From Ulva prolifera (Eukaryota > Chlorophyta > Ulvophyceae > Ulvales > Ulvaceae), in the NCBI GenBank assembly GCA_023078555.1, contig CM041199.1, positions 124,001 through 188,000 of the forward strand: a stretch of 64,000 nt of DNA, in the 5' to 3' direction. Shown piece after piece: positions 449 through 52,449 of this stretch. The number at the start of each line of letters is the position of its first letter. Position 1 is the stretch's first letter. Below the pieces are notes generated by a model, which was not told the origin of the DNA, did no database searches, and saw nothing but the letters and a program-made list of their open reading frames with translations. Position numbers and translations under genes: made by a program.

Positions 449-3400
449 GAGATTCGGGGGGACGAAAGTGCCAAACTCGTACGGCCGGGGGAACTGCAGC
501 GCGGCGCCGCCGTCGTAGCCGAGCTGGCGGCACGCGACGCCCGCCGAGTCCGGTGTGAACTTCTCGGTGCCGCACACGTCGCTCCACAGCCGCTGCCGGA
601 ACACCTCGAGGCGGCCGTACGCGTACTCGTCTGCCATCTCGCCACCCTCCAGCCTCAGCTCGCCGTCGCCTGTACACACCACCGCAGTTGTTGCCGGGGT
701 GTGTTACGTGTGTGACGACTGCATCGGAGCAGTGGACGCGCACGTCAGCAGCCTGACAGCCCCAAACATGGCTAGCAGAAGCCAGAAAGTAATTGCAAAC
801 GCGAGCTTGCACAGCGTGAGATTGATTTGAGTCATAAAAATGGCCGAGAAGGGCCGTGTAAATTTGCGTGTTTGGGCTGCATCGAGTGCTGTGTCGTGCT
901 GTGCTGTGCTGCGTGATCTGCCGCCGTGTGAGGGCTGGTATGAACCTCAAGTCCATGGGCCCGACTGCAGTAGCGTTGAGTACATCATGGCCCCGATACA
1001 CAGGTTCAGCATCGGAACACCGGGACTGATGCGTCCTTACAGCCACACCCCAGCAAGAAACGCATCGCAGGGACGCAGAAGCACAAAAACGCAACCGGGG
1101 CGAACAGCGGGGCAGCAGGACATGGCGCAGCACGTGCTCACACACAGCAGCACCACCGTGTACACCTCCGCGCGGAGCACATGCTTCCCCATACACTCGG
1201 GTGCAGAGTTCCCAGTGCACACTTTCTCATGCGCTCACCTGCAGAACCATTCATGATACCGTATACGTGCACGCTCAAATGACGTCCACGAATGCCCAAC
1301 CATGCACAGACTGCGTTGATCGCCGCAAGACATCTCCCAGCCTGCGTCCGATGCCGCTTGCTGGCCTGCCTCATGTTGGCCTACCACCTAGTGCTCCATT
1401 GGGCTTCACTGACAGATCTACAGCGAACCCGCGCAGGCACGGTTGAGGTGGGGCGCACGGCGGCTGGAGCCAGAGGAGCAGGCCAGGTAGACGTCGTCGT
1501 TGTGGTCACAGGGGCCCCGCGGCGCGCCCACCCGCCGCTCCGGCAGCCCCCGCGGGCACTCGAGTAGCGTCGCCTCGGTCCCAGCGCACTCCGCACCTGC
1601 GACGGCGATCGGGATGCGCAGGATGTTTTCCGGCTCGCCCACTCCAGCGTCTGCCTGCAGCAATAGCCATCGTTGGCAATCTGGTCACACCTCGTTGAAT
1701 CGGCCACCTGCCAGGTTTTGGATTTATCGCAGTAGAAATCGGCAGAGTCTGAACATATGATGAGTTTCGAGTGGTGACGACCGTTTCGTGCACTCCAACT
1801 GCGGCCGGGCTACGATGAGACCCTCTATCTCGAGCACTGTTCATTCGTGCTACGGCTGCGCGTCGCTGATTTGGGTGTCTGGGGCTGTGGTCTCATACGC
1901 GGAGCTTAGACCCCGGATCATTTTGCTGTGTGGTCAGGCGCATGGTGGGTGTGTTGTTGGGCGCAAACCTCACACCAATCAGCGGAGCACGCACACCCGC
2001 ACGTGCACCCGCAAAACCCCGTGTCAGAGCAGAGAGAATCCACCTCGGAATGAGGAGTGGCGGGGACCCGGAAGCATGTGCCTGGGACTGGATCCGCACC
2101 TGGGACTGAATCCGCGCTCCGCCGTCGTAGCCGAGCTGGCGGCACGCGACGGTGACCGACTCGGGCGTGAACGGCGCGGTGTCGTCGCTGCCGAACCTGT
2201 CGCGCAGGTTGCAGACGGTGCCCCAGCCGCCGTCGCGGAAGACCTCGAGGCGGCCCCACTCTGCCGCCCCGTCCTCTGCGGCACCGCCGTCCGACAGCCG
2301 CAGGTCGCCCTCCTCTGCGCCTGCACCCACGTGGGAGCCCTGCTGTCATGGCAGCGCCATGTGGCAGATGACGCAGTCCGCTCACTCACGTCCGGCGCGC
2401 AAGCAGCACATGCTCATGAAAGCAGGATCAATGATGGCGTAGCTGTATCCATTGGGAGGTTTCAGGGGCTGACAGCCAGGTCTTGGCGAGACAGTGCATG
2501 TGGAATGAACGAGGACGTGCTGCAGGGGCATGTGCATGGTTGCAGCTGATGGGGAACGCCCACGCCACGGCTCTTGTCGATATATGCAGCCATTGCTGCG
2601 GCACAGCAGGTTGGTGTAGGAGGTGTGCTGGATGGCAAGCAGCTCGCGTACACCAGGCAGGCAATCCGGGCGATTTCGGTCAGCAGCTTTTGCCGATTCT
2701 AGATGCGGCCTCGCAGGGCGTCCTGGCCGCAGAGCCACAATGGTCCACAGCACGACCGCGGCCGCGACACCTCCACAGATGCAATGCAGGAATACTCCAA
2801 GGAACAGACCGCGTGCCAATTCTGACTTGGCATCGGCAACAACTCGCAGGCGATCTGTTCCAGTCAGAAGCCCCGAGCGAGGGGAGCACACCGGCGGTGC
2901 CGAGGCTACAGGCGACAAAGGCGAAGGAGCCGGCGAGGCTGTCGGTGCGGCTCGCGCGGAACGGTGCGCAGCCGTCGGGGCCTTGGTCGTCGTACAGGTA
3001 GCGCTCCGCACCGCGCGCGCCGTCGGCGACGGCAGCCACGGGGCAGTCCAGCAGCGTCGCCTCGTCGCCAGCGCAGCCGAGGTTCTCGATCACAAACGGC
3101 GCCAGCACCTCCTGCACACCAGCGTTGGGTCGCCTTGCAGCATTCTTAGGGCCGCCGCCCAGAAGAACGTCCTAAATACTCGGACTTGTTCTATGTGATC
3201 GGGCGTGACCACCCAACACGGATGCACGCGCTCGAAGCCCCGGCCGATCGGCGCTGGTGGAACAAACACGCCGACTGAGAATTCACTGCTGCACTGTGTG
3301 GCAGATGTGTTATCGCCGGCCCGTTGACGTCTACGAGCCCATGCAGATAGCAATGGACATTTGAAAATGCATGCATGCAAATCCTGCTTTGCCACTGTCC

Positions 3401-4557
3401 TGCAGCGCACCCCGCCGTCTTTCTCTCTGGCACCAGAGAGCGCGTCGCAGTTCAATGTCCAAATGCACCGGTCGGTGCTTGCAAATGACCGGGCTGCCAC
3501 CCGGAGCAATTGTGACAGGGATCAGCGCAGCGCACCCGCTGCAGGTCGGAGATGTCGTCGGCAGAGAGGCCGAGCGGGAGGGGCCGGACGGGGATGCCGC
3601 CGGAGAAGCCGAGCTGGCGGCACGCGACGGCGGCGTCGGCGGCGTCAAACTCCTTCGCGCACACCGCGCCAAACGCGCCGTCGTGTGCGAGCTGGAGGGC
3701 GCCGGTCGCGAAGCCGTTGAGGTCGACGCGGCCCACCAGCCTCACCTCTCCGTCCTCTGCAAGAATGGAATGGGTACAATGTGATGACTCGTGTGTGTCG
3801 TCGTGCGTCACGCAAGACAGCATAAACCATGTCTACCAGAATCAGGTGCGTTTCTAGGGAACATCTCCGCCGGGAGGAGGTCGTTTGTTGGAGGCCACAG
3901 GTGCCTTTGGTCAACATCGCAGGGCGGAAAACTGGCTGAGCTTTGTGAGCGACAGAGTGGATGCGGAACTTGCATGCATACGAGAGCATCCTCAGGGGTC
4001 GCGCAGCGGCCGCTCGGCACGCCGCGACGTGCGCAGGGTGGAGGGTGACGGTGCAAGACGCATCGCACGTGGCTCACACAAAGCATTCATGGCGAAAAGT
4101 TGTGGAACAGTGGCGGGGCTGTGCAACTGTCCAGTACTCGCAAGTCCCCGGACACACCGGGCGCAGCACTCGAGGCGCATGGCGGCGCACCAGGCAGTGC
4201 ATCTGGCGGGGGTGGCGGGGGTCCCGGCGCCGGTGTGGGTGCTGGCACGGGGGGTGGCGCCGGTTCGACGGGCACCGGCGGCATGGCCGGAGGCTCCATG
4301 CCGCCGTATTCGTCGGGGGGTTCGTACGTGCCGTAGCCGCCGTCGGCTGCCGGGCCGTCGGCATCTGTGCGGTCGGGATGGTATGGGTAGTGTGGGTGGA
4401 ACAGGAGGACTCGGGAGAGTGTGGAGGAGGCGCGGGAGAGGAGGGACGCGGTGCCATGGGCCTGGGCTGCTGCTGATGCCGTGTGTGCGGAGAATGTGAT
4501 GGCTGACAGGAGAGCGAGTGCCGCTCTGCTGGGCCTGATGGGGCCGGAGCGGGCAAC
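449..4557 (-). CDS. Multi-SRCR-domain secreted or membrane protein (partial, 3' end off window)
   Basis: Scavenger-receptor cysteine-rich domains are extracellular ligand-binding modules. Minus-strand exons 4557-4191, 3756-3536, 3111-2892, 2314-2100, 1654-1459 and 669-449 all join in phase with GTGCG or GTGTG donors. The first exon encodes a hydrophobic stretch (AALALLSAITF) that could be a signal peptide or membrane anchor, then a Tyr/Pro/Gly-rich and poly-Pro stalk. Next come three SRCR domains. Each first half ends in VACRQLG[FY] plus a Gly-rich turn; the two second halves present carry CAG[DT]EATLL[DE]C and end near V/L-A-C. Each domain starts and ends in a phase 1 intron and is cut internally by a phase 0 intron at the same place. 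No start codon lies in frame in the first exon, so a further 5' exon is expected. Ligand unknown. The SRCR call is firm; the exact gene limits are not. Confidence 0.85.
3112..3222 (-). repeat. TIR-bearing introner-like element, copy B
   Basis: This is the 3' part of the 424-base intron between the two halves of SRCR domain 1. Read on the minus strand it is clearly homologous to 14844-14956 read on the plus strand. The shared core includes CCCGATCACATAGAACA and ATGCTGCAA-GCGACCCAAC. Its ends are imperfect inverted repeats around GTGTTGGGT / ACCCAACGC. The acceptor TGCAG follows the right end directly, as in copy A. Confidence 0.75.
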
Positions 4558-6517
4558 CTGTACACAGATGTTTGAGGTGTTCTGCTTTTACATGAAGCAT
4601 TTGGAGTATTGAAGTTTGGGGAGGATGTCAGTGGTTCTTCCTGCAGTGACTGGTGCTGGTTGCGAGCGTAGGTAGATTGAGTTGACCCGGGCCGCATGAA
4701 GATCGTCTTGACGCAGAGATTTGGTACTGTGGTGTATCTGATGTGTGTAGGTACCAGAATCTGCTGTTGCACAACGCTGGAGCGCCGTGGCTGCTGGGCG
4801 GTGACAGAGCAGCTGACAGAGCTCTGGCAGGCCAGCAGGGCTGCAGATATATCAAGCAGCACAACTGTTGACGCATGAACAGCAGAGACATTGCAACGGT
4901 TTGAGTCGAGATTTATTTTAGAGCTACTCTGTGATCCTCGCTCGATCCATGTATAAATAACGTGTTCAGTGGTCCAACTACCTCGTGAGACAGTGGACGA
5001 GAGGAGGACGGCTGGAACTTCAAGTGCGAGTTGAAAATCTCACGCAAGGAGTAGAGGAGCGCCAGCCCGCGGCGATGTCAACTCAGCGTCGAGAGTCTGG
5101 CTAATTGAGCTCCTGTTCAGATGGACTTTTTGTGCAGCTGACTGCACATAATCTCGTAGCAGTGGTAACCGAATCTTGTGAAATCGTAATTATTAATAAT
5201 CCGGGCCGACAGTATGGGCTTGCTTTGTTTGACCGCGTTCGACAACTGTACGGTGTTTCTGTTCCAGCATATCCAGTGAGCAGTGCCGTGCTGGAGCTGC
5301 ACGATGTGAACATGAGCATGCAAGCATGATCTGTGCCTTCAAAGGCTCACACCGATGCAGCTACGACGTTCCGAACAAGCACGTAGAACTTCAACGCTAT
5401 CTCTATGAACTGTCAATGCTTCTATCGGTTCATGCGTAAGAACGTGTCCTGCAACTGTGACTGTGCGGACCGGACAACGTCGCTTCGGAGGACATGCCTG
5501 GAGATCAACAGGACCTGAACCGCAAACCTCTCAACTGGTTGTGCATACACACCCGTGACATATGATCTGCACTTAGCCAGGCTTTGCATTCATTCGTGCT
5601 CTCGACTTCGTCACACGTCGACTGTGTAGCTGCCAACACCGCACTTATGCCGTGGTCAACTACCCAGAATTTAGCGTGACAATGGTCCGAGCATATACTG
5701 AGATATCACATTTCTTCTAGGCTATGCAGACAGCCATGTCCGTGCTGGTGCATGTGTTGCAAGGACGTGGGCGTGCCATGAACCCCGGTCGCGTCATGCG
5801 GTGTCAGCCTGCTGGGCCCTGTCTTGACCAGATCACGGCAGGCACAATTTGAACCATTTGACAAGCAGTATCGAATTTGATGCGCACCTCCATCCGCTAC
5901 TCCTAGGCAAAAATTCCGCTGCAGTTTATCGCAAAGTACCGGAGCTGGGCGTGGTAGTCCTTAACGGATCCGGAAGCCGGCCTGCTGACCGATGTGCAAG
6001 ATGATGTAGCCGCCCAGATGGGATATGTACTTCAATCGCGCATTCATGACCTTCCTGTGCTGCGTCTGATTCTTCAGGGCGGGGTAGCCTGATCAGACCG
6101 TGCACCCACCTAATCAGCCCGACATCACGCGCGGAGTTGATCACCAGCTTTGCTGACTCGACCACGACAAGCTTGTGCTGTCCAAATTACGCAACCGTGG
6201 CTATACAATCTTGTGGGTCTCATGGTTCGCTGCACCTGCTGAGCCTACCCAGCTGGGCCCAGGTGGGTATTGCACATGCGAGCCCTGAATCAGTGCCTCC
6301 TGCCACCTGTCCCTCATCACCATCCGCACAAGATGCGGGTTGGCACGCTGTGTATCCGGCCCTTGCCTGTGGCGCCTATTCTGGCTGTCTTGTGCACCAT
6401 GCTCTCAGCTGCAGCGCCTGTGGCAATCGATGAGTGGGTACTTCTAAGCGATGTCATCTACTATGTACAGGCCGTGCTTCCTGGGACATGTGCTTGGCAA
6501 GGTCATCGGGAGGATCC

Positions 6518-6672
6518 TCTCCTGGTGTGCCTGTGCTACGCGGATGAAGGTGGCGAGGCGGGCAGCACCGCAAAACCAGCAAGCATCGCAGGAACACAAC
6601 CGTGCTTGTGTTACAAGGACAAAGGCAGCAAGGCGGGCAGTACCGCGAAAGAAGCAAGCAGACGAAGCACAC
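6518..6672 (+). repeat. Dispersed repeat family D, two tandem units
   Basis: Two adjacent units of roughly 75-80 bases each contain the core GGCGGGCAG[CT]ACCGC followed by AAGCA[AG]GCA. They are separated by ACAACCGTGCTTGTGTTACA. Related copies appear at about 20971-21030, 38101-38160, 44071-44130 (reverse), 47179-47250 (reverse) and 51836-51900. No terminal inverted repeat was obvious, and the full unit limits need alignment. Confidence 0.7.
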
Positions 6673-6808
6673 ACCCAGACACCCACGCACGCAACACCCA
6701 CCACGCCCAGTAAACCCATCACCGGCGCAGCAAACGACACAGATCCGCAGACCGCCAAGCACACACCCACGCACCCACACAACCGTGCTTGTGTACACAT
6801 TTGGCATA

Positions 6809-6880
6809 TGTGGTCCCGTTAACTCGGAGTTGTCAATGTCCAATAGGATACGGCTCAGTAAATTCAGATTTACTTTACTG
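6809..6880 (+). repeat. Dispersed repeat family C, copy 1
   Basis: Very similar to 46507-46585: both share TGTGGTCCCGT, TCGGAGTTGTCAATGT, GGATACGGCTC and ATTCAGATTTACTTT in the same order and spacing. A third, more diverged copy lies at 20420-20475. It is followed by a CTGCACAG acceptor-like motif and lies directly after family-D material (ACCGTGCTTGTGT), so C and D may be parts of one longer element. Confidence 0.75.
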
Positions 6881-8210
6881 TGCACACCTGCACAGGTGTA
6901 CGCCTGCATCTGAGCTGATTCAGGCTGCCACCCCGAGGCTGCCAGGATGCACGCATCGCAGAACAGCTCGGCCTGCGCTCATCGACTGGAACAACAGCAG
7001 AAAGGCAGGTAGCATCGATCGCAGGATCCGCGGGCACAGCGCGACCGGCAAGCCACCGCCGTCACTCCAGACAGAAAACCACAGGGGCACCGCTTTCTCC
7101 GTGCAACACTGCCAGCACGGACTATGCATGTACGCATCCATGATTGCATAGCCATGTCCATCAGGATATTGATAGGCATGGATGTGGCCAGGGCAGCAGC
7201 AGCTGTGCATCGAAGCTTCGATGCAGCTGGCCTAGGCCCCCGCCTTTGCTGGTGCCTTCCTCGAGCGCCCTCGGCAACGATACCCCGGCGCTGCTGCCAC
7301 GCCTGCGTGCACGCACCCTGTTCCAGGCAGCACAGGTGTGACCACTGAGGCCAAGCCGTCATACCCGCCCCTCAAGGCCCCCTGTTGGAGTGTCCGAAAT
7401 TGCGCACCAACGCGGCAAGGGTGCTAGTTTTTGTTTGTTTTGTGCATGGGTTTGCCTCCTTACGTTAAGCGGACGTGTTGAGTGGAACTACGACCTAAGA
7501 CAATCTGGCTTTATTGCGATGTAGTGTACTTTATTGCTATGCCATGCCATGACCTGAGCTCATGTTGTTTCTGAATGGAGAATTGGTCAACAGCCGTCCC
7601 ACTACGCTGCATCCCACTGACTCTGACTTATCTGGGCACATGCACAAGGTTGTGATTGATCGTGAATCTCGTTGCACCAGTGCAGGTTGACATCCTGATA
7701 CACCCAGGAGCTGCTGCGGCATCCTGCTGGCATCATGCTGCTGTCCTCCCCATCAACCTGTTTTGGGTCTATCTGGATCGACCATGGCAGGCAATAGAAT
7801 CCTGCGAAGGGTGTTGTGTCATGCTTGCAACATCACAAACACGCACGATAGGCACGACGGTCCAATATCACAATGCAACAGGGATCGATCATCTGGCAGT
7901 GACACAAGCCTGGTCCGGCTCCACACTGCAAAGCCAAGTATGTCCATCACGTCGGGTGTTCGCTGTTACTCTGAAAATTTCCGTGATCGTCTGCCCTTAC
8001 ACTGACTCTTAAACCAAATAGGATCCACTTGGCCCTCAAAGCCTCCAGTATGCCAATGTCATCCCAGAGCAATTGCAATGCTCTGATTATTCGCTCTTGA
8101 GCGTTCTCCCATATTTTTGGCACTTGTAGCAGCACTCTTCTGCTTGTATCGCCCATTCGCTGTACCTTTTGTGGGGTTTCCATGGCCTTCGTGTTTCAGT
8201 TCATTGTAGC

Positions 8211-9162
8211 TTACATAGGAGGATACTGTGAATTCTGGGCTGGGCGTGCTGCTGGAGGGTACATCTCTGACTGTGCCATAGGAGGCTTCACGTATGGATT
8301 GGTCGTGTATGGCTGTGCTGGCGGCGCTGGTGGTGGGGGGGTGTAGCCGTAATTCATGGTGGGCTGTTGTGGCTGAGGAGGAGTGAATCCATACTGTGCC
8401 GGAGGCTGCGGTGGGGGCGAGAATCCATAGGTAGGTGGTGGTGCTCCAGATGCAGAATTGGTGTGTAGCGTCTGTTGGACTGGATGGATGATTCGCTCAT
8501 ACTCTTGGGGCTTGTTTGGGCTTGCAGGTGCAGAGTTGCCACCATAGTTGATAGGCGCGCTGTGCTCGGCTGACTGTGTTTTCGCTTGCAGAGGGACAGC
8601 TGCAGAGTTGGCATCACCACCTTTCAGGCCGCCTCGCCCCTTCAGCTCACGGATCTCCTGGCATGTAGCACACGCGTGGCAGAAGCAATGCACACAGCAG
8701 TCTGCAAGGCACCGAAGGCGTCAAACTGCTGTAGCTGTACTGTTAGCATGATTTTGGTTCTTGATGAGCGCATTCAGCAGGTTCTCACGTCCTTTTTCGG
8801 CGTAGCTAGTCAGTGGAGTATAGCCAAATATGATTTTCCCTACGAGAGTAGCAAATGGCTCCAGGCGGTGCTGCGATCAGTGTCCTACATGAAAAGCGCA
8901 GTGAGACCTCACCTCCACATGGAGCCTCCATCAGGCCGTACTTGGCGCGCAGATTTTCGCGGACCTGGGGCCCCGTGATACACCTTGGCACACAGCAAGG
9001 TAGAGTCACGTAATACAAACAGCATGGGGCACATTCTCCTCCACCGTTCACAGCATGCGCCAGCATGCCGTGCGCAATGCACGGACAGTAACATGTCAGG
9101 CAACAACTACTGCAGTCGTCGCAGAAATCAAACAGGCCGGTTGTCCACTTGTTTGTTGCCAT
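8211..9162 (-). CDS. PLAC8 (cysteine-rich) family protein with Pro/Tyr/Gln-rich tail
   Basis: PLAC8-family proteins are small Cys-rich proteins, often membrane-associated, with roles in cell-size control or metal transport in plants and fungi. Two minus-strand exons, 9162-8913 and 8701-8211, join in phase 1 across a GTGAGG...TTGCAG intron to give 246 residues. The PLAC8 domain occupies about residues 1-105. It has FDFCDDCSSCC, CYCPC, two further Cys pairs, the R-E-N-L-R-A-K-Y-G-L segment and, after the intron, CCVHCFCHACATCQE-x-REL. The rest is a low-complexity tail with repeated Y-G-[FY]-x-P-P motifs. ATG at 9162 is the only Met directly before the conserved TGLFDFC motif. Codon use is balanced, unlike the GC-saturated SRCR exons. 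Domain call firm; cellular role not predictable. Confidence 0.9.
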
Positions 9163-9965
9163 TCTGCAACCACATCGACGCTGAGAGCAGCACCGCCACC
9201 ATGAGACACATAGCTCTGCATACAATCAAATACACGATATATGGAAGTTGTGGTGGTACCTGAAAGACGACCGAAGACAGCGAAAGCTATCGAGCCGCTA
9301 CGCGCAATGTCTCGTACACTGAAGAAAGGTAAAGCAATGCCAAGATTGAGAATGAACGGCAATTTTTTTCCAAATATTTGCTCAGTTCGGCTATCCACCG
9401 TATGTCAAGGAGTATGCCTACGCAAAGTGTACACTAGCGCTCCGGCACTGCGTTCCAGTTCTAACACAAATTAACTGAGTAGCTGTGGAATGACAACAAT
9501 ATATTCGTTTTGAAAGCATTGAAATACATCGGAACTGACGGCAAAGCCATTGACTTTCTGTTCACGTTATAATGGGAGAGCGTGGAACTGACATGCATGT
9601 TCAGACTTGCGAAAATCCTGCATCCGGGCTTCAGCACTGATGCACTGCTGACAAAAGATACTTCCATGCCTACGATTATCAGACAGCGGGACCTTCGGTA
9701 AGAGCTCGATTGTCCAGCAGAGCAAGCTGTAGATCTGCACTCAACTCTGCTCGCTGTCAGCGAGCGTCGCGGCTACCTCACAGTCCGATACTTCAGCACC
9801 GGAGGCTGCACTTGCGATCATTCGGCGCTGAGGAAGACACAATCTACCGTTCATATCTGCCATAAGCCATGGGAGAGCTGGGGGTGCGTGCCGGTCGAGT
9901 TCCACGCATCATGGTGGTGTGACAGAAGTCTGCCTGCACAGGTTCCCAGGCGATCATCCTGTATC
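9163..9965. other. Divergent intergenic gap between PLAC8 and the GST-ProRS gene
   Basis: About 800 bases of lower GC between two divergently transcribed genes, so promoters of both probably lie here. No conserved promoter motif or RNA gene was recognised. An extra 5' exon of the ProRS gene is possible, because the first coding exon may start with a splice acceptor rather than at the ATG at 9966. Confidence 0.4.
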
Positions 9966-12900
9966 ATGCTGCAGGAGCTACACCTGGTCAGGGCGCAGTG
10001 CAGCAATAGCTCGCTGGTCACAATCGTGAAACTCGTTGAAAGGTGCTTCAGCGATGGATTCACTGTTCGTTTCGAGATGTACGACGCTGCCCCAGCCGGG
10101 CCTCCGGCACCTTTGCCATACTTCAAGAAGCCTGATGGAACAGTAGTCTCAGATGAGATTGAGTTGGGAAAATATCTAGCTAGCGAGGGTGCCCCATCCT
10201 TGCTGGAGGGCGATGCAGCAGTGATGGACTCTTTGCTGGCAGACTCCGGCGCCCTTGCCAAGCCGGTCAAGACAGCGACAAAGTCCAAGACAGCTGAGGT
10301 GTGAGCTCCCGGGGGGTCTGACTGTAGGTAGCTTCAAGCTGATCGCGTCCATACTGAAGCTCCAGCGTCAGGATTTTCAGCGATTGTCTACAGTTGGCAT
10401 GGCATGATCGCACCACAAAGCGAGGAAACGTTGTACATGCATTGAAGTGCCCTTGTCTCGCATGTGGAAGTGTGCACTGGTGTCCAGTGTCGCATGAGCG
10501 GGCCAGCAGGCTGCACTGAGGTGTGCCGCTGGCGCAGGTGTGCCGGAAGCATCAGTTCGCCTGTGTTGCTCCCCTCCGTCAGATTCGCATCTACCAGTGT
10601 CACCGTTGACGCATAGCTCCATATTCGGGCAAGGGTATAGGAACATGCCAAGTCCTGTTGCTCTGTATATCAGCAGGTGCTCCGCACATGCTCCACACGT
10701 GCACACCAGCGCCACAACGATTGCCCACCACTGGTACACATCCTCCATGCTGCCACACTCAGCTCTCCCTGACTGCCGCACTGCTGCGGGCTGACCAGAA
10801 GCAGGTCGTTGCCGCCGATTTTGCCATCGCCTGTACTTCTCCTTGCAACAGCACACCTGTTCTACACTCCACTTGTCTGCAGGCAATGGCAAAAAACCAG
10901 GGCGCTCTGACTGAAGCTGTCGCACCCCTCGAAGCAAAGCTGGCCGCCTCGCAGTTTCTGGCAGGTGCTGAGCTGTCTCTAGCGGACATCGTGTACATCG
11001 CCACACTCAAGCCTGCCTTTGACAAGGTGCGCCCAGTCCCACACCCCTTCTTCAGACACCTTCTTGTCACCCTCCACGCCCCAGCCTGGCCAGCATGAGT
11101 ACCGTAAGAAATTTTATGTGCGGTGCCCGAATTCAAGGACACCACACTGGAGCTTTGTACAGAGTCCAGTGGTTTCACCTTGAACCGCTGCACCTCCTGA
11201 CCATGCCGCACAGGTGCACAAGCCACATTTGCGCAACACATCATGTGGCAAGGCACCCAAGGGCAATCCAGAATCAATCGAAACCACAGCCCATGATAAA
11301 GCACATCGAGTCAGCAGTCTGTGCTCCTGTCGCACCGTCAGGGCCCTCCCGCTCGCCACGGCAAAGCACTGCGCCAGCTCCTGAGGGACCTCTTGAAGGG
11401 AATTGGTGCTGGCTGGGCCTAGACATAACCACGCCCGTGTAGGCCCACACCTGTGATGTAGCTGTAGTGCCTGCGCATATGGGCTTCAGGCCACCTGCGA
11501 GTGTCGTAATGTGGCTCACGCGGCCGACGCGGGCAGGTGGCCGTGGCCGTGCTGTCGTCGTGTGACGTGCCTGCGGCGCGGCCTGCCTGCTGACTTTGTC
11601 ATTGCACCACATGCATCCGCGACCTCAATGCATCACCCCACTCGGCGAAGGGTAGTCCACCCTCCCTCAGTGACGGGCCGTCATGCCCGACAGCACAGCG
11701 GCGTCAGCGGATCAGGTAGCACGGAATCCAGCAGCTCCGCCCCTGCGGCCCGACACCAGCGCCATGATGTAGTGCGTGCGTAGGTGCTCGACCCGGCCGC
11801 CCGCGAGAACATCCCGGCGGTCGCGGCGTGGTACCAGCGATGCTACGACACGAGCGCGGCGGTGCGGAAGGTACTCGGGGACACGCCGCTGTGCGACGCG
11901 GCGAAGCTCGAGGTGAAGGTGCAGGAGAGCAAGGAGGAGAAGAAGGCGCGCGAGAAGGAGAAGGCGAAGGCGAAGAAGGAGGCGGCGAAGCAGGAGGCTG
12001 GCGCCGGCAAGAAGAAGGGCGGTGCGCCGCGCCCTGTGCTGCTGCAGCTGTGCTTGACGGTGAGCGTGGGTGCACGAGGAGGAGAGCACACTGGTCACGC
12101 AAGAGCAGTGTGCAAGTAAAGCCACATTCACATAGCCATGGCCGTACCGGAGATTGACTGGGGAGTCTTTGATGATGGTGGTGGGTGTGAGTGGCTGTGG
12201 TGAGGTGTGAGCTGTGCTGGCCACGAGCGTCTGGCCGGTGCGCACGACTACACGCACAGCATTCGACATTGTTTGTTTGAATTGATGTTTGGAGGCACGT
12301 TTCGGCGGCGATCAGCATCAGCTAGCTGGGGAGTATCGCTTGATAGAGTCGATCGGTGCTGCAGCGCAGCAAGGTGAGCAGGTGCGGATCAGGCGCTGCG
12401 TGCGACGCAGGTGGTAGAGGAAGAGAGGAGATGCATGTGACTGCGTGGAGCCTGCTTGCGGCCTCAGCGCTGTGTGCTGAATGCGCAGAACAGGTTCCGG
12501 GCTGGGCTGCGTTGTCATGACAGACAAGTTCGATGCCAAATGGCGCTCCCAGAAGCCCCACTCCCCCCACTGGGGGGGCCTGGTGCTAGGAACACCGCTA
12601 TGCATACGTGGCTAGGTCTCGCAGCGCATCTACAGCAAGGCCCTGTGTCCGCGCGATCAGGCCCTGTCAGCGGCGCCTCTTTTTTTTTTTATGAGATGCA
12701 CACATGCACCTCGGGCCAGACCCGCGTCCATCTGAGGCCTCGGCGCGCATGCATGCAGGCGGCGGCGACGACAAGAAGCCGCACGAGCTCGCGGTCACGC
12801 CGCGCAGCACCGACTTCGCGCAGTGGTACTCCGACGTCATCATCAAGGGCGAGCTGCTGTCGCGGTACAACATCCCGGGCCTGTTCGTGCTGCGGCCGGC

Positions 12901-15900
12901 GGCGTTTGCGATGTGGGAGGCGATCCAGGCGTGGTTTGACGCGAAGATCAAGACCATCGGCGTTGAGAACTGCATGTTCCCGCTGTTCATCCGGGAGGAT
13001 GTGCTGAGCAAGGAGGAGGCGCACCTGGAGGTGCGGCCGCCTGTGCCGGCTGCCTGTGCCCTGCAGCCTGCACCCGCTGCGGTGTGACCGTTTACGTTTT
13101 GGGTTTTCTTCAAAATTATTTCCAAGTTCTGCGCCAGTATGAACAACGGCGTGAACACTATCCACGGAGAAATCATTCTGATTCAGGACCAACGCCTGCT
13201 CGCGCGCCTGTTCCCAGCTATGTCTGCTCGATGTTGCTTCTGCTGAGCAGTGTTTGTGTGGCAGCCAGTCTTCATCACAGTCACTAACCGTGCCCTCGAC
13301 CCTTCTAGCCACTACCCCTGCCCCCGCGGCAACACCGCTTCCCGCATGCCGCACCTGCTGACGCGGTCGCCCGGTGCCGCGCAGGGTTTCTCGGCGGAGG
13401 TGGCGTGGGTGACGGCGTCGGGCGACCGGCAGCTGGACGAGCGGCTCGCGATCCGCCCGACCTCGGAGACCGCGATGTACCCGTACTACGCGGAGTGGAT
13501 CCGCAGCCACCGCGACCTGCCGCTGCTGCTCAACCAGTGGACGAGCGTCGTGCGCATGGAGACGACGCAGACGACGCCGTTCGTGCGCACGAAGGAGTTC
13601 CTCTGGCAGGAGGTGCGCGCCACTCCCACCTCCTTCGGCGGTGTGTGTCATGGGGAACACAATAACAGGTACCAACAAAGTCTGTTCGGGATTGCCGGAG
13701 AATATGAAAACGGAGAGGCTGGTGGCTTCATCTTGGGCTCTGTGTGGGGAATGCTTGGGTGTGTACACGGCAGAGAGAGGGTTGAAAACCCGCAACCCGC
13801 TCGGACACACGTGACCTGATCGTACGCCAGCTGACGGGTGCGCCGAAGCCGTGTGGAGTGAGCAGGAGGCCGACACGGGTAGCGTGTGGATTGTGTACAG
13901 TGTACAGAGCCTCCACGAGCCGGCTGAGCTGCATGCATACAGCAACACCACACACCACCCAGCGCTCCCCCGGCTGGATCGCACGCTCACGCAGTGCGCC
14001 GTCCCAACTTATCCAGCCAGCCACATGAGGCGGGGTTGTGTTCGGACGACGTTCGCGGGTGGGTGTGCTTGAGCGGGGTGTGAGTGGCGCAGGGGCACAC
14101 GGCGCACGCAACGGAGCAGGAGGCGCGGGTGCTAGTGCTCAAGATCCTGGAGTGGTACCGCGCCATCTACGAGGAGCTCATGGCGGTGCCGGTCATCCCG
14201 GGCTGGAAGAGCGAAAAGGAGAAGTTTGACGGCGCCGACGCGACCTCGACCATCGAGGTGCGGCCGCTGGCAAAGTCTGTCTGCCGTCGACATGCTTCGT
14301 GAGATCATCTGCTATCACTGACGAGCTGTCAGTGATGACTTATCGGCTTGTGGCTGTGATTGTTTCTGTGGTGGTTGTGGTGATGCACTCCTTGTTTTCC
14401 GGAAACGGTTCCTGGTCTGATGGACATACCTGGTGAGCGATAGTCGTGCTACAGTTGGCTGTACACGTATCGCGTGCACTCTCTGGGCGAGGCGTGCCAG
14501 CAGCACACTCGATCCCATATCCCACCCGATACATGGCCACACTTGCACATGGGCATGTTGTAGGGGCCGTGCAGGTTGGGCCGATAGCAACAATGCATGG
14601 GCACCAGGCATGTGCTGCCATCCTCGATCAGTGTGAACAAATACCAGTGATCAGCGCTGCTGTCAATTATTTGGCCTTCACACAGGATATCCTGATCTTG
14701 TTGCTGGGCATAGCACACAGCCTTGTGGTGTCTCATCTCCGAGCAGAATCACCCAACACTTATCCCCGCTGTCCAACAGGGTCTGCAATGTAAGCACCAA
14801 CCCAACGCATCCACGCCAGCAGTGTCAGTAACGCAGCACTATGCAGCAGTGTTGGGCCATCGGGCCCGATCACATAGAACAGTTCCAAATATTCAGATCT
14901 AATTTCGGGGTGGCAGCCCTGGAAATGCTGCAAAGCGACCCAACACTGCTGTGCAGGCGTTCATCCCACAGGCCGGCAAGGGCATCCAGGGCGCCACCTC
15001 GCATTGCCTCGGCCAGAACTTCGCAAAGATGTTTGACGTGAAGTTCTCGGATGCCGACGGGCAGGAACGCTTTGTTTGGCAGACGTCCTGGGGCTGCACG
15101 ACGCGCACGCTGGGAGTCATGATCCTCACACATGGAGACGACAAGGGCCTCGTCATCCCGCCGCGCATCGCGCCGAAGCACGTTATCGTCGTGCCGATCA
15201 CGATGGCCAGCCACAGCGAGGAGGAGGTGGCTGTGGTGCACCGCAAGGCGGAGGAGCTCGCGGCCGCTGTCAAGGCTACCGGTACCCTCTCCACCCCCTC
15301 CCCCCCCCCCCTCCCGCCTGCCGGATGTACCCTGATGTGCACGTGTCCTGCGATGTGCGTTGTCTCCTCATCACCACACTTCATCACCGTGGGTGATCTC
15401 GACAGAGGAAAGGACCTGCTTTGCGTGTGGCAGGGGTATTCCGCGCCGACATGCATGGCCGCCATGCCGCCCAATACATAGCCAACAGGCTGTCAGTGTG
15501 ATCACAACAAACTATTTCAACCCTGCCTGGTTTATGACCCTGATCGAAATCCCCTTGCTTCGATTCAATCGCGTCGTTCGTCTCTGTCATCAATCCACAA
15601 TCGCACCCAGACACGCAGCAAGAGGTCAATCCCAGGGCGCACGCGCAGGCCTGAAGGCGTCGGCGGACCTGCGCGAGAACTACACCCCCGGCCACAAGTA
15701 TTCGCAGTGGGAGCTCAAGGGCGTGTGCCTGCGGCTGGAGCTCGGGCCGAAGGACATGGAGAAGGGGTCGGTGATGACGGTGCGGCGCGACACCGGCGCG
15801 AAGGAGGCCGTCGCGTGGGCGGAGCTCGCGGCGCGGGTGCCTGCGATCCTCGATGACATGCAGTCCTCCATGTTTGCCAAGGCGCAGGCCGCCGTGACCG

Positions 15901-20419: not shown

Positions 20420-20475
20420 AAATGTCAATGTCATCTAAAGGACACGGCTCAGTACATCCAGACTTACTTTACTTT
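20420..20475 (+). repeat. Dispersed repeat family C, copy 3 (diverged)
   Basis: Shares TGTCAATGTC, GGA[CT]ACGGCTCAGTA and the CAGA[CT]TTACTTTAC tail with the copies at 6809 and 46507. It ends in ACTTTTACAG, a good acceptor-like sequence, but no coding exon was recognised after it. Confidence 0.6.
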
Positions 20476-27803: not shown

Positions 27804-27888
27804 GCATCAATGCCCGAGCTGGTCTAAGGGGTGTGACTTAAGATCATATGTGCGGACGCACGCGTGGGTTCGAATCCCACTTGATGCA
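27804..27888 (+). tRNA. tRNA-Leu (anticodon UAA)
   Basis: 85 bases, no intron. The acceptor stem GCATCAA (27804-27810) pairs perfectly with TTGATGC (27881-27887), with discriminator A at 27888. The anticodon stem TGTGA/TCATA encloses the loop CTTAAGA, giving anticodon TAA. A long variable arm (GTGCG...GCAC) is as expected for a class II leucine tRNA. The T arm is GTGGG-TTCGAAT-CCCAC, which includes the B box. CCA is not encoded, as usual in eukaryotes. Confidence 0.96.
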
Positions 27889-29964: not shown

Positions 29965-31295
29965 TGTGCATGCATGCCGTCCTGGCCGCTCTGAGCCCTT
30001 GACTGCCTTGCACTGTCAGTTTTTATGTAGACCGTAGTGTGAATAGCTTGGGGCTCACGCGCTGGAAACATGATCAAGATGCTGTTAATTGGGGCTGCAG
30101 CAAGAGTATCGGGTCGTCTTCACATTGATTCAGGGTCAGATTTGGGTAAGCTCTTGACGCAGGGGGCTCGACAAACTAAGCTACTGGTCAAGTTGCGTTT
30201 GGTGATCAAACGATGCGGGACGCAGAGCGTGTGCGGGGCAGCGGAACGTGGGGCGCTCACGCCGCCGCGCCCCACGCCCCGCCGCCCCGCACATGCTCTG
30301 CACCCGGCCGCCGCCACTCCGCAGCGGACCCACTCCCAGGCACACATAGTGCCGGCACCATCCGCCGCAATGCGTATGCCACGAAAGTCTCCCTGTGTTT
30401 GTCTCCCGCCGTCGCGAGCGCGTCGGCGCTTACATCTGTACAAGCACAATGCTCGCATAAGTGCTGAGGCACTTCCATGATGCACCCATCATCCACCGTC
30501 CACAATCATAACGGTCACAATCAGAGTTGCATTCATACGCGTATCTTTCGATTTCGGTACGTTTAATACGCGTATTTTATGCTTACGTACTTTATCAGCG
30601 TACAGTACGCGCGTACGTTTCGGACTTGAGCGATTTCGGAGAGCCTGGAGCTCTGCACTGTGGGGCAGCTCTAGCTACAAGGCCAAAGAAGGTCTTGAAC
30701 ATCCCTTGCATTGCATGATGAACCTGAGTAACCTGATCATCTGATTGACTGCTAGTTCATTGTACTATTCTCTGCAATAGTGTGCCTAAGCACAGGTGAC
30801 AGTGACATTGGCACTTTCAAGTCTGGCCATCACGGGCTTGGCGCCTCTGGCCCCATGGCTTGCAAGCCAGCAATGTAGCCTATACAGCGTACTTTTCAAC
30901 CCCCCCTGATTAGAGCCAACATACCATACGCGTGTTTGTGCTTAACGTACTTTATCACGAAACGTACTAATGCAGCTCTGGTCAAAATCGCACTGCAGCG
31001 TCCGGTCATCAGGGCGAACGACACTGCAGCGCTTCCATTGCCCACCGCTGTCCGCACGAATGCCACTTCCCGTTGCACCCCCACAGCCATGCTGACAACC
31101 CCCTGCCTCACCCCAAGCCACCACAGAATGCCCGAACCGATGCGACATGTATCATCGCTCCTGTGGACCAGCGCGAGTGGCCGTGATTTGAGGCACGCGC
31201 CGCATGCAGGCCAGCTCGGCGTGGATCCGTTCCTGCCTTCCCTCGCAGTCCTCCCCTCCCTCTCCCTCGCCAACGTCATCCCCGCCCGCCCCCAG
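29965..31295. other. Gap with a duplicated motif; likely 5' region of the downstream gene
   Basis: Contains two similar A/T- and TACG-rich segments at 30567-30597 and 30927-30957. The stretch from 31220 to 31295 is a strong pyrimidine tract ending in CCCCCAG, which defines the first coding exon seen for the Pro-rich gene. That gene therefore needs at least one further exon here, not identified. Confidence 0.5.
30567..30957. repeat. Pair of direct repeats about 360 bases apart
   Basis: Both copies read TACGCGT[AG]TTT, then TGCTTA, ACGTACTTTATCA, in the same orientation (30567-30597 and 30927-30957). The surroundings are rich in CGTAC/GTACG palindromic words. They may mark the ends of a short insertion or a tandem duplication with diverged interior. 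Confidence 0.55.
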
Positions 31296-36785: not shown

Positions 36786-39700
36786 GACGTACGACGTCAT
36801 GTGGCGCGAAGCCATCATGGACCTCCTCGATCAATTAGAAGCGGAAAATCCTGAGGATCCAGCGTTGGCTCCCAGGGAATTCTCTGAATGGGCTTGTATC
36901 TACATCAGGTACCTGCAAATATTCAGGAAGCTCGAGGCTGCATACGATCAGATGGTACATCCACAGAAATTAGTAGACATGAAGCGCGCATTGGAAGCGT
37001 GCATGGGCCGCATGCTAGAAGTCCGGCATTGGCTTGTCAAGCTTAAAAAAGGCGCTGACTTCCTCAACATTGATGACATTCTCGTCGATCTGAAATTGAC
37101 TCCTGAGGAACTGGAGATACCCGTTCCACGGTACTTTCGTCTAGACAATCAGAAGGTCTCTTCTCACGTTACCTGATAACCTCACGCTTCTTTTGTGGCT
37201 CCATCAGCGATTCAACGGCTGTCACGAACACCCACGAGTGTGGCACAGAACATACAAAGTTATTGTTTGATAAGTATAAACTCTGATCGACGTGATGAAG
37301 CACAGTGCTGCTACATGTTCTGCCTAGTCGTGTGTAGCCCGCACAGCTGTGCTCTGCCAGAAACCTGCACCCAGGCATACACAATCAATGCTGACCACCA
37401 CAATGCAGGCACTCGACACACGAGACATCTTTCTGGAGCAACTCATCAAGAACTTCAACCCGAAGCGAATAGAAAAGCCATCCAGCCTGGACTCTGGTTC
37501 AGCTCTGCCTCTAGATGAGGCGGTCGCCATCCTCCAGCGCAACGAGCGCGGCAGGCAGGCGCGGCAGGTCGCTCGCATCAAGCTCATCAACAAAAAGCAG
37601 AGGCAACTCGCTGACCGCCGCAATCGCACGGGTGTGGCGCTGACCCATGAGATGGCTGTCACCAAGATCCAGTCGGCGCTGCGGGGCATGCTCTGGAGGC
37701 GCCGCATCCGTGCACAGGCCGATGCGGTGCGCCCCCCTCCCTGCAGCCATGCAGCAATCGCCCTACTTCACATCAGCCACAGATGTCTCTGTAGCCGATG
37801 TGTGCCTGTAGTGTGTGCCGGCTGCGATGAATGAGGACAAAGTGGGGGGTTCAGACCAGAGCTGTGTCCTGGGAGGAGGTCCACTGGTATGTTGAGCACT
37901 GATCTAGCAGCCTCTCGCTCACACGCACCATACATTCTGCGCTAGCCACCAAATTCTCAGTGTTCCACCGGGCACAGGTGCCTTCTGACATCGTTCACTG
38001 GCAGGGGCCTCACACGTGTATGCATCAGTGGCTCACCACCAGCATCGGATCCGCCCGCGCTCTCAACCCGGCATGGGTGTCGCGCTCCTCAAGCCGCTGT
38101 CTTACGGAGACGAAGACAACGAGGCACATAGCACCGCGAGAACAGCGAGCATCTCAAGAACAGGTCCAGAAACCCAGCCCGATGCACCCAAGCCACAGCC
38201 AGCCGCCAGCACGGAATCAGCACCCGTCCAAACCCGGCACTGAGCACAGCACACCGCGCCCCGCACAAGCCGCTGTGTGTTGCACTCCTGAGCCGACTGT
38301 TTTACGCGCTCCCGGCCCGGCCGTGTGTTGGCTCCCGAGATATCTATGTCCTCGCTCCTGACCCAGCTTTTTGTTGCGCTCCCAAGGCAGCTCCGTGTTG
38401 CACTCCCGAGCCTGCTGTGTCCGCGCCCCCGAGCCAGCTATGTCCGCGCCCCCGACCTGGCTGTGTGCCGCGCTCAGGAGCTGGTGTTCATCGGCATGAA
38501 GCCGGCGGCGGCGGCGGAGGGGCGCGACCCGCAGGAGCTGGAGGCCCGCAACGCCGCGCGCCGCAAGCTGCTGCAGGCCGAGAATCGGCGCGAGCTCGAG
38601 CGCGACGTCGAGGCGATCAAGGCCAAGGTGCATGAGACGGAGGGCCTCGACATGCGCGAGACGGTCCAGGACAAGATCAACTCGTGGTTCGTGGAGAACC
38701 GGCACCCCGAGACCGGGGAGTACCCGGACTTCCCGGACCACGAAGACGGCGGGTACGGCGACAGCCCCGCCCTGCTTCCGTGTGCAGAGTACATTGAATT
38801 TGGATTTTGTTAGCAGTATCCTGGTGGGATGTTGACAACACCGGATGACCGAGACCACATTTGCTGTTTGGGTTTGCAAGTAGGCACAAGTGTGTTTGTG
38901 TACATATGTATGCATGGCATACAAGTGGTATGCACCTTCTGAGCTTGCACTGTGCTGGCCATGCGGCCGCATGGCTGTCTGCGGCGGCCCTGTGGCGGCC
39001 TGTCCGCAGCACTTCGGACTCAGTATGCTTTGCCGCTCCGTCTCCAGTGGTGAGAGAAAGTTGGTGTGACGTTGCGGGCGCCCAAGGTAGCGTGTCGATG
39101 GGCGAACCACAGCCACCGGGAATCTCCAAGCACGAGGTCGCCGGCACGTGCTTCTGTGCATGCGTGGCATGCCGCTTGAAGATGCGTGGGTAATGCACAC
39201 TGAACATGCCGGCCTCATGCATGTATGCTGCGCAGGTCAAAGATCATCCTCAACCCACCTCCGCCTCCACCAGAGCCTGACCCGGCTGCAGAGGCCGCCG
39301 CAGCGAAAGGGGGGAAGGCGCCGGCTGGAGACAAGGGCAAGGGGGCCAAGGGCAAGGGTGGCAAGGCAGACGCCCAGGAGGACGCAGAGACCCCGGAAGA
39401 GGTACGGTCGGACCCAGGACAAGGTGACACAGCTCTGGCCCCGCCTGTATGTGTGGTCGCTGCCCAGCCCGGTGTGGTGCCGGTCAGCTAGCCACAGCTA
39501 CTTTTTCTAAGTCTGCACGCCTGGGATTCTGAGCACACTCCTTTGTTTTGCGAGAATGCACAGCATGGCGAAGACCAGCTCCTCGCCCGCCTGGTAGCAT
39601 GGCGGGGGCCGGGGGGCAGTCGTTGGGCAGGCTTACACGTAGCTGCTGCGAGCGTCCACCTATGCTGCGTGCACCGTGCAAATGGCAGCGCATGTGCGCC

Positions 39701-42700
39701 GCATGCCAAGCCCCAGTGGCCAAGCCCCACGCGTTGCAACCGGCGCGGCCGGCCGGCCACACACATGCAGATGTGACCATGCCTCTACAGTTCGTCCTGG
39801 TAGCTCATGCACGATTACGTGTCTGCGGGGCGCGTGCAGGTCATCCCGAGCGTGTTTGTGCCGGCGATCGAGCGCGCTGTGCAAGAGTTTGTCGCGAAGT
39901 GGCAGGACCGCGACGAGAGCATGAACTTCGCGCAGCGGTACGACCCCGACCTCGTGAAGGACGAGCTGCGGCCGCTCGTCTTTGAGGAGCTGCGGCTGCA
40001 GGTCGACGAGGAGATGCGCATCCTCCTCGAGAACCTCAAGGTGCGCCTCCCTGGGCCTCACCATGGCTGGACGCAATGTGTTCACCGGTGCTCGATGCAC
40101 AGCCGTTCATCGTCCGTTTTCGTTCGGCCGACATTTACACAGTCACACGGGTGGGAGTGCGATGGTAGCTGCAGAGATGTGGGATGTCCTGCCGTACCGG
40201 CTGTGTCTTGAGCTGCATGTACACAACAACGTGCACGGGATGCGGCGTATGCTGATACCGTTGTGGAGTCCACGCACCACCACGCCTGGACCGACGCTGG
40301 GTGTGTGCATCGCCGCTGAGCCGCGGCACCGCTGGTAGGGGTGAGGGCTCCGCTGCCGGCCGGTGGAGCGATGCCGAGTCACTGGATTCACAAATCCATG
40401 AGCCGTGCCCGGTGCTGCATCGCCAGCCACGCCTGCAGCATGGCTCCACCGGCCACCTTCTGCCCTGGATGCCACAGGTGGCCACTACCGGTGTGTGTGC
40501 AGGATATGGTTGATGCCGAGAAGGCCGCCAAGTCCGGCAAGAAGGTCAAGAAGCGGAAGAAGAAGAAAAAGAAGAAGAAGAAGGGCGGGAAGAAGGGCAA
40601 GAAGAAGAAGGACCTCACGGCGGACCGCGCCCTCGAGCACCTCTACGTCGAGATGGTATCCAACGGCATCCTCCAGCAGCCCCTCAAGGTGCCCCCCCCC
40701 CCCCTTTCTGCCGCCTGGCCACCCTGCTGCAGCCCTGCTGCGGTCTGCATCGTCCATCTTCTTTTACCTCGTCGATTTGTAGGCTCGTGCTCGGGCCCCA
40801 TGCATGTCGGCGTCACGTCATGTCTGGTGCTTTGCCAAGGCGGTATAATGAGATTCAGACATTGTTGCGAGGTTAGAGTGTGATCAATTGGGCCGTGGTG
40901 GGATGTGCGGCTCGGTGTTGTGATGGGGCTTCGTTCCAACGCTTGAGGCGGCTGTGCCATGTGGGGGTGACATCGATGCTGCGGGTCCACCACTGCAGGC
41001 GACATTTACCGCCTCAGACCATTTCAATGTGGTGTGTGCGGGCACATGAGTGCGAAATCTTGGTATGGTAGAACAACACAGCTGCAATCTTTTTGCTGCG
41101 GCAGAGCTAGGCCACTTCCATTTTTTTGTTGGGGCCGCCAACCCGCGTAAAGAACCCGCGGCTATCACCTGCTCATTGTGGTCGGGCCTGCCCGACCACA
41201 CTATTGTGCTGGTCATCAGTCAGTAGACTCATCACTGGTGGCACCGGTGCAGGTGAAGATGTCGGACTACCTCGGGGCGCCGCACTTCAACGCCGCCGCG
41301 CTCGAGCGCTCCGGCGCGCTGCCGGACGCGAGCATGGCGCAGGTGCGGCAGGCGCTGACGGAGTTTGCGGTGCTGCCGCTGGGCAGCGCGCACGTGCACG
41401 AGCGCCTCGAGCCCCACCTCAAGGCCGTGCTGCTCTACGGCCAGCACAACACCGGCAAGAAGCTGCTCGCGCACGCCATCGCCAACTCCACCGGTGCGGC
41501 CGTCCCCCCTTCGCTGGCCCGACACCCATCATGAGGCGGACTCCTCGGACTGAGGGAATGTGGCGAGCGGATCCCACAGCTTTTACATGAGTACATGTTC
41601 GGAGCCATGCCTGCGGCCGCATGTCCCGCGAACTTTACCTCCTCTCACCGGCCAGGTCATCTCGGCTCCCTGCGGTGCACCTCAGTACACGGTCCTATCT
41701 TCCTACACCACGGGCGGAGCTGGCGGCAGATGTCTTGTGGATGCGTCTACTGCTTGCAGGTGTCAGGTTCTGTTGTGGGTTGTCGAAGTGTGTCGGAGGT
41801 GTGTAGGCGCACTCGTGGCCACTGTTCGTGAAATCGCCCGCAGCAGCCCAGTTGGGAGGTACTTGCACCACGCAGCGAGGCGCATGGCCTCTGACATCCG
41901 CGCTGTCAACAGGCGTTCGGTGTTTCACCGACAAAAGGCACAGATCTCGCCGCCGTGTGTGTCCTTGCACAATAGAGTTCGTGGTAGTGGCTCCATTGCA
42001 GGCCGTGCTCTGCAGTTCACAGCAGGGAGGTTGTGTGGCTGTAGGCGCCAACTTCTTCAACTTGAGTCCGCGCAACACGGACGGCAAGTACCAGAAGAAG
42101 GCGGTCGCGATGATGCTCCACATCGTCTTCAAGGTCGCAAAGACGATGGCTCCCAGCGTGATCTTCATTGACGAGGTTGAGAAGGTGTTCCTCTCGGACA
42201 AGAAGAAGCTCAAGGAGTTTGCATCTGTGGAGCCGTACAACCGCATCAAGAAGGAGCTTGCAAAGGTGAGGCGGCCGCCGTGCAGTTTCGCTGCTTGGGG
42301 GCTCTTCACTGTATGCATGCATGATTACATGTGATTACGCACCCATTACATATAATTAGATGCCCATGCAGTTTCGCTGTGCAGTTATGCAGTGCTCTTT
42401 GCTGTACACTTTTACCCTGCGGTGTATGCCATGCATTTTCGCTGTGAAGTGTTGCTGGGTGCATATGCTGTGCACTGAAACGTCTCAGGTTTTGCTGTCA
42501 AAACAAATTCTTGTGTTTCAGCCCAGTGTTCCAGATGCAACATTCATTCCACACCCTGATAGCCGGGATAGCTCAGTCGGTAGAGCGCAGGACTCTTAAC
42601 TCGAGTGCCATCCTGTGGTCGTGGGTTCAAGCCCCACTTTCGGTAATGAGGTCTGTGACCGGTTTTGCTTGTGCACATTCATCGCACGTGTTTTCCTAAT

Positions 42701-50961: not shown

Positions 50962-52449
50962 TCAGCAGCGCGGGGGGGCCTGCACGAGAGTCGCGCCGTT
51001 GTGTGCGAGCATGCTGCCCCGCCTCATGCCACTCGCACGGTACGCCTCCACATCCGCCCGCGTCGTCGGCCCATCAAGCCACAGCCCCCACGCCATCTTC
51101 CGCACCGTGCAGTGTGCCAGCTCCAGCCTCGCCCCCGAATGCCCCCAGATGCCGCACACCGCCCACTGCTTCCCGTCGGCCCGGTGGCCTCCATCCGCCC
51201 CCCCGGCCACACCACCCCCCTCCTCCGCGTCGCGCGTCGGTGTGCCGTCGGACGTCGGCGAGACGGGGTCCGCGCGTGCATGTGCCGCGGTGGCCGCGGC
51301 CTGGTGCATGCACCGCGGCACGTGCCGCGCGGACTTGATCGTGCAGCTGTGCATCACGAGGTACGTGTCCGGGCCGCGCGCCTCGAACGCCGTGATGCAT
51401 GGGCCGCTGCATGCCGCGTCGTGCAGCTCGAGCATCGCCCCGGCGGCGGCGCAAGCACACTGCTCGCAGCGGCGCATCGCGGCGCCGCGGGACACGACCT
51501 TCGTGCCGGCGCCGGCGGCGAAGAGGCCGACGCCGGCGGCCTCATGCGTGCATCTGGCGGTGGTGGCCTCGGCGCCGCCGGTGACGACGAGCGGGCAGCG
51601 GTCGAAGTGGCAGCGGTCAAACGTCACCGAGGTCTCCGCCGCAGTTACCACGACCGAGCCCCCTGTAATCGCACGTGGCTATGATCAAGTAGAGTGAATT
51701 GGAGGCAAGTTATGTTCAGTCTCGCACGGTTGTATCGGCCTCGATAACGGCTGGCTTGCAGAGAATCACTATCGCTGCCGCAGGTGTGGATGCTGTAGTT
51801 TTGCTTGAATTGGCAGAGCTGAACGCTCTGTTGATGTGTGACAAGAATACAGGCGGCGAGGCGGGCAGCACTGCAAATCAAGCAAGCAGAGGTCTGCGTG
51901 TGTGAGCACACAGCCATCTGTGGCTTTGATGCAAAGCGGTTAGTGCGGGGGCATGTGAGACTGGAGCGCACCGATGAAGCTCACATCCTGGAACGTGATG
52001 CCGTTGCACTCTGAGAGCAGCAGGATGGCATGCTCTGGTAAGCGGAAGGTGCCCCCAGAGATTGTCGTGCCCCTCAGGTCCCCCGTGACCTGCCACACCG
52101 GTGAGCCTTCAGGAGCTGGCACGAGGTTCCACACTGCGTGACTATTTGAAGACCCCGGTACTAGTTTCTCAGGGCGGACCGGGTGGATTGGAAGTTCCGG
52201 CAGAATGTCGCCAGCAGTGGCAAAGGGCCGGCCTGGGGCGATGTTGTGGCCTGAGGGCATGACGACCACGGCACCGAGCCATTTGTCATAGATGCCCTCA
52301 CAGATGGTCTGCAATGTGGTGGTCTTGGGCGCAACCTGCATGGGATCGCTGGATTGGGCAAGTTCTGGTGCGAGCGGGAAGCGATACGCTCTTGTCCAGG
52401 TGACCCTCATGAGAGACGAAGTGACAGTGGAAACCAAGTTTGAAGCGAG
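50962..52449 (-). CDS. Right-handed parallel beta-helix (pectin-lyase-like) repeat protein
   Basis: Two minus-strand exons, 52449 (or Met at 52437)-51972 and 51662-50962, join in phase 1 across a GTGCGC...TTACAG intron. They give about 388-392 residues up to the stop at 50962. The first exon has a lead-in segment and then rungs such as GTTISGGTFRL and NGITFQDVSFIG. The second continues with S-V-T-F-D-R-C-H-F-D, L-E-L-H-D-A-A-C, Y-L-V-M-H-S-C-T-I and L-E-L-A-H-C-T-V-R-K-M, the typical alternation of short strands ending in C/N-x-[FVI] turns. Proteins with this fold may bind or cut polysaccharide or act as adhesins. No catalytic Asp/Arg cluster is evident, so a structural role is as likely. The C-terminus might continue past a possible donor at G-A-T-L-V. 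A 5' exon is possible. Confidence 0.75.
51836..51900 (+). repeat. Dispersed repeat family D, copy in beta-helix intron
   Basis: GGCGGCGAGGCGGGCAGCAC followed by TGCAAATCAAGCAAGCAGA matches the 6.5 kb units closely. It lies within intron 51971-51663 of the minus-strand gene, antisense relative to the 44071-44130 copy. Confidence 0.75.

Follow-up and report, generated by a model that had tools for sequence, protein, structure and literature searches.

Miniature inverted-repeat transposable elements (MITEs) are non-autonomous transposons with terminal inverted repeats (TIRs). The introners of Symbiodinium microadriaticum combine TIRs with 4-bp target-site duplications (TSDs), and in the excerpted account of them the element is the whole intron and bears the 3' splice site at its end, with the duplication providing the 5' splice site (Gozashti et al., 2022; PMC9860276). 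In the introner elements of Amoebophrya, inverted repeats of 8–20 nt join both intron ends and are accompanied by direct repeats of 3–5 nt, and many of the splice sites are non-canonical, as far as the excerpt of the source goes (Farhat et al., 2021; PMC7789003). Stwintrons, according to similarly partial texts, hold an intron-like unit within a splice element of another intron (PMC12403724, PMC8469720). Here we describe a 108-base element with inverted ends in the green alga Ulva prolifera, found in a 64,000-nucleotide stretch (the window; contig CM041199.1 of assembly GCA_023078555.1, positions 124,001 to 188,000 of the forward strand) whose genes are eukaryotic and bear introns. One copy (A) lies at the acceptor of a ProRS intron and the other (B) at the probable acceptor of an SRCR intron. 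Judged from the letters, we consider with moderate confidence that A and B are old copies of a non-autonomous MITE-like element inserted in existing TG^CAG acceptors.

The two copies head the list in a comparison of the window with itself, run with the low-complexity filter on. Positions 14842-14957 align with 3226-3111 on opposite strands over 116 bases at 76.7% identity (E = 1.5e-17), with 27 mismatches (16 transitions and 11 transversions) and no gaps, and beyond the block identical bases fall to 10/40 on the left and 17/40 on the right. In both copies the homology is limited by TGCA on the left and by TGCAG plus the first exon base, G, on the right. Both lie in sense with the host gene and finish in TG-TGCAG, followed by the exon, so that the arrangement can be written TG[108]TG-CAG|exon, the same TG (TGCA counting further) flanking each copy. 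The first-pass annotation, which had reported a homologous unit of about 110 bases in two unrelated genes, in sense and ending in an inverted repeat followed by TGCAG and the exon, is borne out in these respects. The limits it gave, 14844-14956 and 3222-3112, are better drawn as 108 bases with a TG on each side, the aligned block including the first exon G. The inverted repeat of copy A, CAGCAGTGTTGGG / CCCAACACTGCTG, matches at 13/13 positions, and that of copy B at 10/13, the remainder being two G-T positions and one mismatch. The features of the two copies and their host introns are as follows.

14842..14843 (+): left TG, start of TGCAG, the presumed old acceptor of copy A (from sequence)
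14844..14951 (+): element copy A, 108 bases (self-comparison, profile)
14844..14856 (+): left inverted repeat of A, CAGCAGTGTTGGG (sequence)
14939..14951 (+): right inverted repeat of A, CCCAACACTGCTG (sequence)
14952..14956 (+): TGCAG, acceptor of ProRS intron A (ungapped protein junction)
14093..14257 (+): ProRS exon 5' of intron A (rough gene model, protein homology)
14258..14956 (+): ProRS intron A, 699 nt, phase 0, donor GTGCGG (protein homology, rough gene model)
14957..15281 (+): ProRS exon 3' of intron A (protein homology, rough gene model)
3225..3226 (-): left TG, start of TGCAT, the presumed old acceptor of copy B, its AG lost (from sequence)
3117..3224 (-): element copy B, 108 bases (self-comparison, profile)
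3212..3224 (-): left inverted repeat of B, CATCCGTGTTGGG (sequence)
3117..3129 (-): right inverted repeat of B, CCCAACGCTGGTG (profile)
3112..3116 (-): TGCAG, probable acceptor of SRCR intron B (SRCR match, gene model; exact base deduced)
3536..3756 (-): SRCR exon 5' of intron B (SRCR domain match, rough gene model)
3112..3535 (-): SRCR intron B, 424 nt, phase 0, donor GTGCGC (SRCR domain match, rough gene model)
2892..3111 (-): SRCR exon 3' of intron B (SRCR match; 3' end from the rough gene model)

The acceptor of copy A is placed by protein homology. Three ProRS exons (13385-13612, 14093-14257 and 14957-15281), joined into a query of 240 residues with two junctions, match solved ProRS proteins with a best E of 5.6e-100. 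The junction TIE|AFIP is ungapped in all three alignments shown; intron A is therefore 14258-14956, its acceptor being the TGCAG at the right edge of the element. The position of this acceptor is fixed in protein terms, and it is probably the one used in the RNA. For copy B, the SRCR domain joined over 3535-3112 scores 44.9 bits; scanned in longer open frames, the two sides of the intron reach 33.1 and 16.8 bits, the latter below the Pfam cut-off. Since the junction falls in a variable loop of the domain, the exact acceptor base is judged from TGCAG|G and from the phase, which is 0 on either side; the acceptor of B is well supported, not proven, and probably lies at this base. GTGCG starts four of the six ProRS donors, and the donor consensus of canonical Micromonas introns is AG|GTGCGT in the excerpt of the source at hand (PMC3879977). 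The remaining five ProRS introns range over 354-699 nt, and introns A and B after subtraction of the net 110-base insert are 589 and 314 nt. As a separate observation, the SRCR gene (449-3756, minus strand) carries a tandem array of three SRCR domains, the middle one of which has a phase-0 intron (2099-1655) in a comparable region of the domain, without the element and, judged by eye, about ten codons off the position of intron B.

A two-sequence profile run over the window gave two strong matches, A and B (124.4 and 124.0 bits), and the maximum in 30 Markov null sequences, which contain no inverted repeats, was 8.4 bits. A third match of 13.7 bits (41202-41103, antisense, with a probable acceptor about 50 bases downstream at 41253) was rejected as a copy, copy A read backwards already scoring 12.0 bits through its inverted ends. 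The spaced pair GTGTTGGG...CCCAACNCTG occurs in three rows in the window, namely A, B and A read backwards, and three or more rows were reached in 0/100 shuffles. The element is short and shows no codon-position bias: a forward frame stays open along both copies, and a coding exon was rejected on the mismatches, which number 10, 7 and 10 at the three codon positions and give no coding signal. In the frame of the downstream exon (forward frame 1) each copy has a stop codon, which makes retention in frame implausible. The two copies resemble each other more over the last 34 bases than over the rest (3/34 versus 24/82 mismatched, p 0.017, with limits picked afterwards), which constraint from splicing and shared transposon ends fit equally.

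The deletion products argue for insertion into acceptors that already existed. When the element and one TG are deleted, ...CACTATGCAG|GCG remains in ProRS and ...GAGCGCGTGCAG|GAG in SRCR. TGCAG is the commonest acceptor in the window, at 20 of 32 acceptors with A and B counted, the 32 having been picked by hand from a rough gene model, with no RNA check, after the remaining, mostly short or wrong-strand, exons were dropped; the deletion products are therefore ordinary acceptors. We infer transposition as the most likely course: a transposase supplied elsewhere would move the 108-base element into TG^CAG, in sense, and insertion would duplicate the target, either TG or TGCA (2 or 4 bases). The TGCA(G) on the left would then be the old acceptor, and the right duplicate, the TGCAG at the exon, would be the acceptor now used. 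Because all 110 added bases fall within the intron, the protein would be unaltered. The old TGCAG of copy A, 110 bases upstream, must be avoided, since its use would shift the frame. Such an element resembles MITEs in being short and non-coding with inverted ends and a probable small target duplication, and differs from them in its position directly against splice acceptors. A superfamily that targets TG or TGCA was not identified, and no search for a transposase was made.

The question whether acceptors are preferred was approached through the frequency of the target. Counted on both strands, the window, at 57.3% G+C, has 689 TGCA and 468 TGCAG, and 654 of the 689 TGCA sites lie outside peptide-defined exons. 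If TGCA is taken as the target, the 20 acceptors listed as TGCAG give each insertion a chance of 0.015 of landing at an acceptor in sense, and the two copies together one of 2.3e-4; with the number of acceptors doubled to 40 the joint chance becomes 9.4e-4. The placement of both copies at acceptors is suggestive of either targeting or selective survival and is not proof. Among inverted repeats, the best 14-base repeat ending at most 7 bases from the acceptor has 13 matches for A and 11 for B, while the other 30 listed acceptors include one at 12 and three at 11, and 100 random plus-strand TGCAG sites include eight at 11 or 12 and none at 13; by this measure A is exceptional and B is not. That the element belongs to a transposon family homing in sense to the TG^CAG acceptors of existing introns, with the acceptor shifted 110 bases downstream and the protein unchanged, is a tentative proposal, and we hold it to be rather doubtful. 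On that view splice sites would be safe landing places, and the insertions would lengthen introns and not create them.

Several points weigh against insertion into existing acceptors. The left flank of copy B reads TGCAT, not TGCAG. With two copies and identical target letters, a duplicated target and letters borne by the element cannot be separated. For dead insertions that have diverged by 23%, the lack of any gap over 108 bases is somewhat unexpected, and the chance estimate above is rough and post hoc, assumes a TGCA target and concerns two events only. A 15-base word of element A occurs also in the 5' part of intron B (score 25, equalled in 0/60 shuffles). It was the sole exception among six comparisons of the element with upstream intron sequence, the other five of which did not beat 60 shuffles, and the element-like words upstream in introns A and B are suggestive only. 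Separately, the 584 bases of intron A 5' of copy A contain four inverted-repeat 8-mers at 14751-14826 (plus strand), a number reached in 4/500 shuffles; these are perhaps the remains of an earlier insertion.

The first-pass annotation had called the element introner-like, carrying its own acceptor. The likeness holds for a homologous TIR unit that stands in sense and flush with an acceptor in both of the strong window copies (the acceptor of B being deduced), and S. microadriaticum introners with inverted ends that bear the 3' splice site have been reported in the portion of the source consulted (PMC9860276), with a similarly short length and small duplication. It fails where the element would have made the introns. 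No donor site stands at the left edge of the homology, and different intron sequence, about 580-590 bases in A and 310 in B, precedes the element, the 5' parts of the two introns giving no homology block in the self-comparison. Only the last 108 bases are common to the 699- and 424-nt introns, so element and intron do not share their ends. If the element had landed in an exon, the two GTs of the left repeat, to which this reckoning is limited, would serve as donors with 2 or 4 extra bases left in the exon and a frameshift, so that neither allows in-frame removal; and the acceptor stays intact after deletion, which is needless for a self-made intron. That the element made these introns is therefore improbable in our judgement. 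Unlike the Symbiodinium introners, as excerpted, in which the element is the whole intron, the donor here lies upstream at the distances just given. Because there is no left donor, the GTs would cause frameshifts, the 5' intron parts have no homology block in common and the donor arrangement is unlike that of the introners in PMC9860276, the element would act as an intron-extending insertion. The repeats of Amoebophrya are comparable in being inverted and accompanied by direct repeats, and differ, so far as the excerpt shows, in that they join both intron ends and many of the splice sites are non-canonical, whereas here the element stands at the 3' end only, in GT-AG introns (PMC7789003). A stwintron-like arrangement is likewise distinct, on the partial texts (PMC12403724, PMC8469720), in that cutting out an inner GT-AG unit fails to restore an in-frame outer acceptor: A keeps CA before the exon (+2 bases), and B yields no TGCAG acceptor.

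Two further explanations bear on the same evidence. An ordinary MITE with a TGCA preference could insert at any location, the acceptor placement of both copies being coincidental; TGCAG is both a common word and the usual acceptor in the window, and the census consists of just two strong copies, whereas the rough chance of both lying at an acceptor in sense is the 2.3e-4 (20 acceptors) or 9.4e-4 (40) given above, and we regard this coincidence as unlikely. Alternatively, the block may be non-mobile, either an intron end that was duplicated or an RNA hairpin conserved for a role in splicing, which is quite improbable. Excised copies do fold better than shuffles (z -3.34 and -3.88), the last 34 bases are the more alike, as given above, and the alignment is gap-free; in context, however, the folds are weaker (z -1.64 and -1.70), the right repeat of A pairs upstream of the element, and 7 of 31 other intron tails, B included, have lower fold energy than A, while homology framed by inverted ends and TGCA resembles an insertion. 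In predicted folds of the copies alone, the inverted ends of A are paired with the left AG hidden and the right GCAG free, and the right TGCA of B is base-paired. The signal for hairpin-assisted splicing is strong in the isolated copies and weak in context, and was not relied on. A branch-point-like 5-mer sought near the ends of the 30 other listed introns gave no word that stood out, the top word being GGTGT (uncorrected p 0.0017). The preferred reading, an old MITE-like insertion in existing acceptors, would, if confirmed by a census, describe a mobile element that lands in working acceptors and survives through a target duplication that rebuilds the acceptor. Intron making and intron extending, easily confused where a repeat touches a splice site, would here be told apart, and surveys of acceptor-adjacent repeats may overcount introners.

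Searches with exact 17- and 19-letter patterns found three and one loci in viral contigs and 21 loci in prokaryote genomes, the longest similarity to A or B over all 25 being 31 bases, and we take all of them as chance matches. A 21-letter pattern had zero matches in viral contigs, and a ProRS exon search of the viral contigs confirmed no relative; these collections contain few or no eukaryotes, so absence there is weakly informative. A literature search on miniature inverted-repeat elements, duplications and splice acceptors found nothing on the subject, judged by titles and the openings of abstracts, and the entries listed for TSDs and TGCA were of no help, which does not by itself show absence from print.

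Other repeats of the window include a second short family at 6805-6887, 46504-46590 and 20423-20473, with 81.6% identity over 87 bases and 84.3% over 51 bases. Its copy at 20423-20473 extends into TTTTACAG, which the rough gene model reads as the acceptor of a questionable exon of 44 bases. A third short family, on both strands, lies at 6527-6704, 38130-38178, 44038-44109, 47189-47237 and 51835-51890, shares GGCGGGCAG.ACCGC-like words and reaches 93% over 43 bases. Near-palindromes, compared with their own reverse complements, occur at 30222-30301 (80 bases, 80%) and 46064-46103 (about 40 bases, 93%). Two RNA genes, tRNA-Leu (TAA; 27804-27888, plus strand) and tRNA-Val (AAC; 42562-42645, plus strand), are also present in the window.

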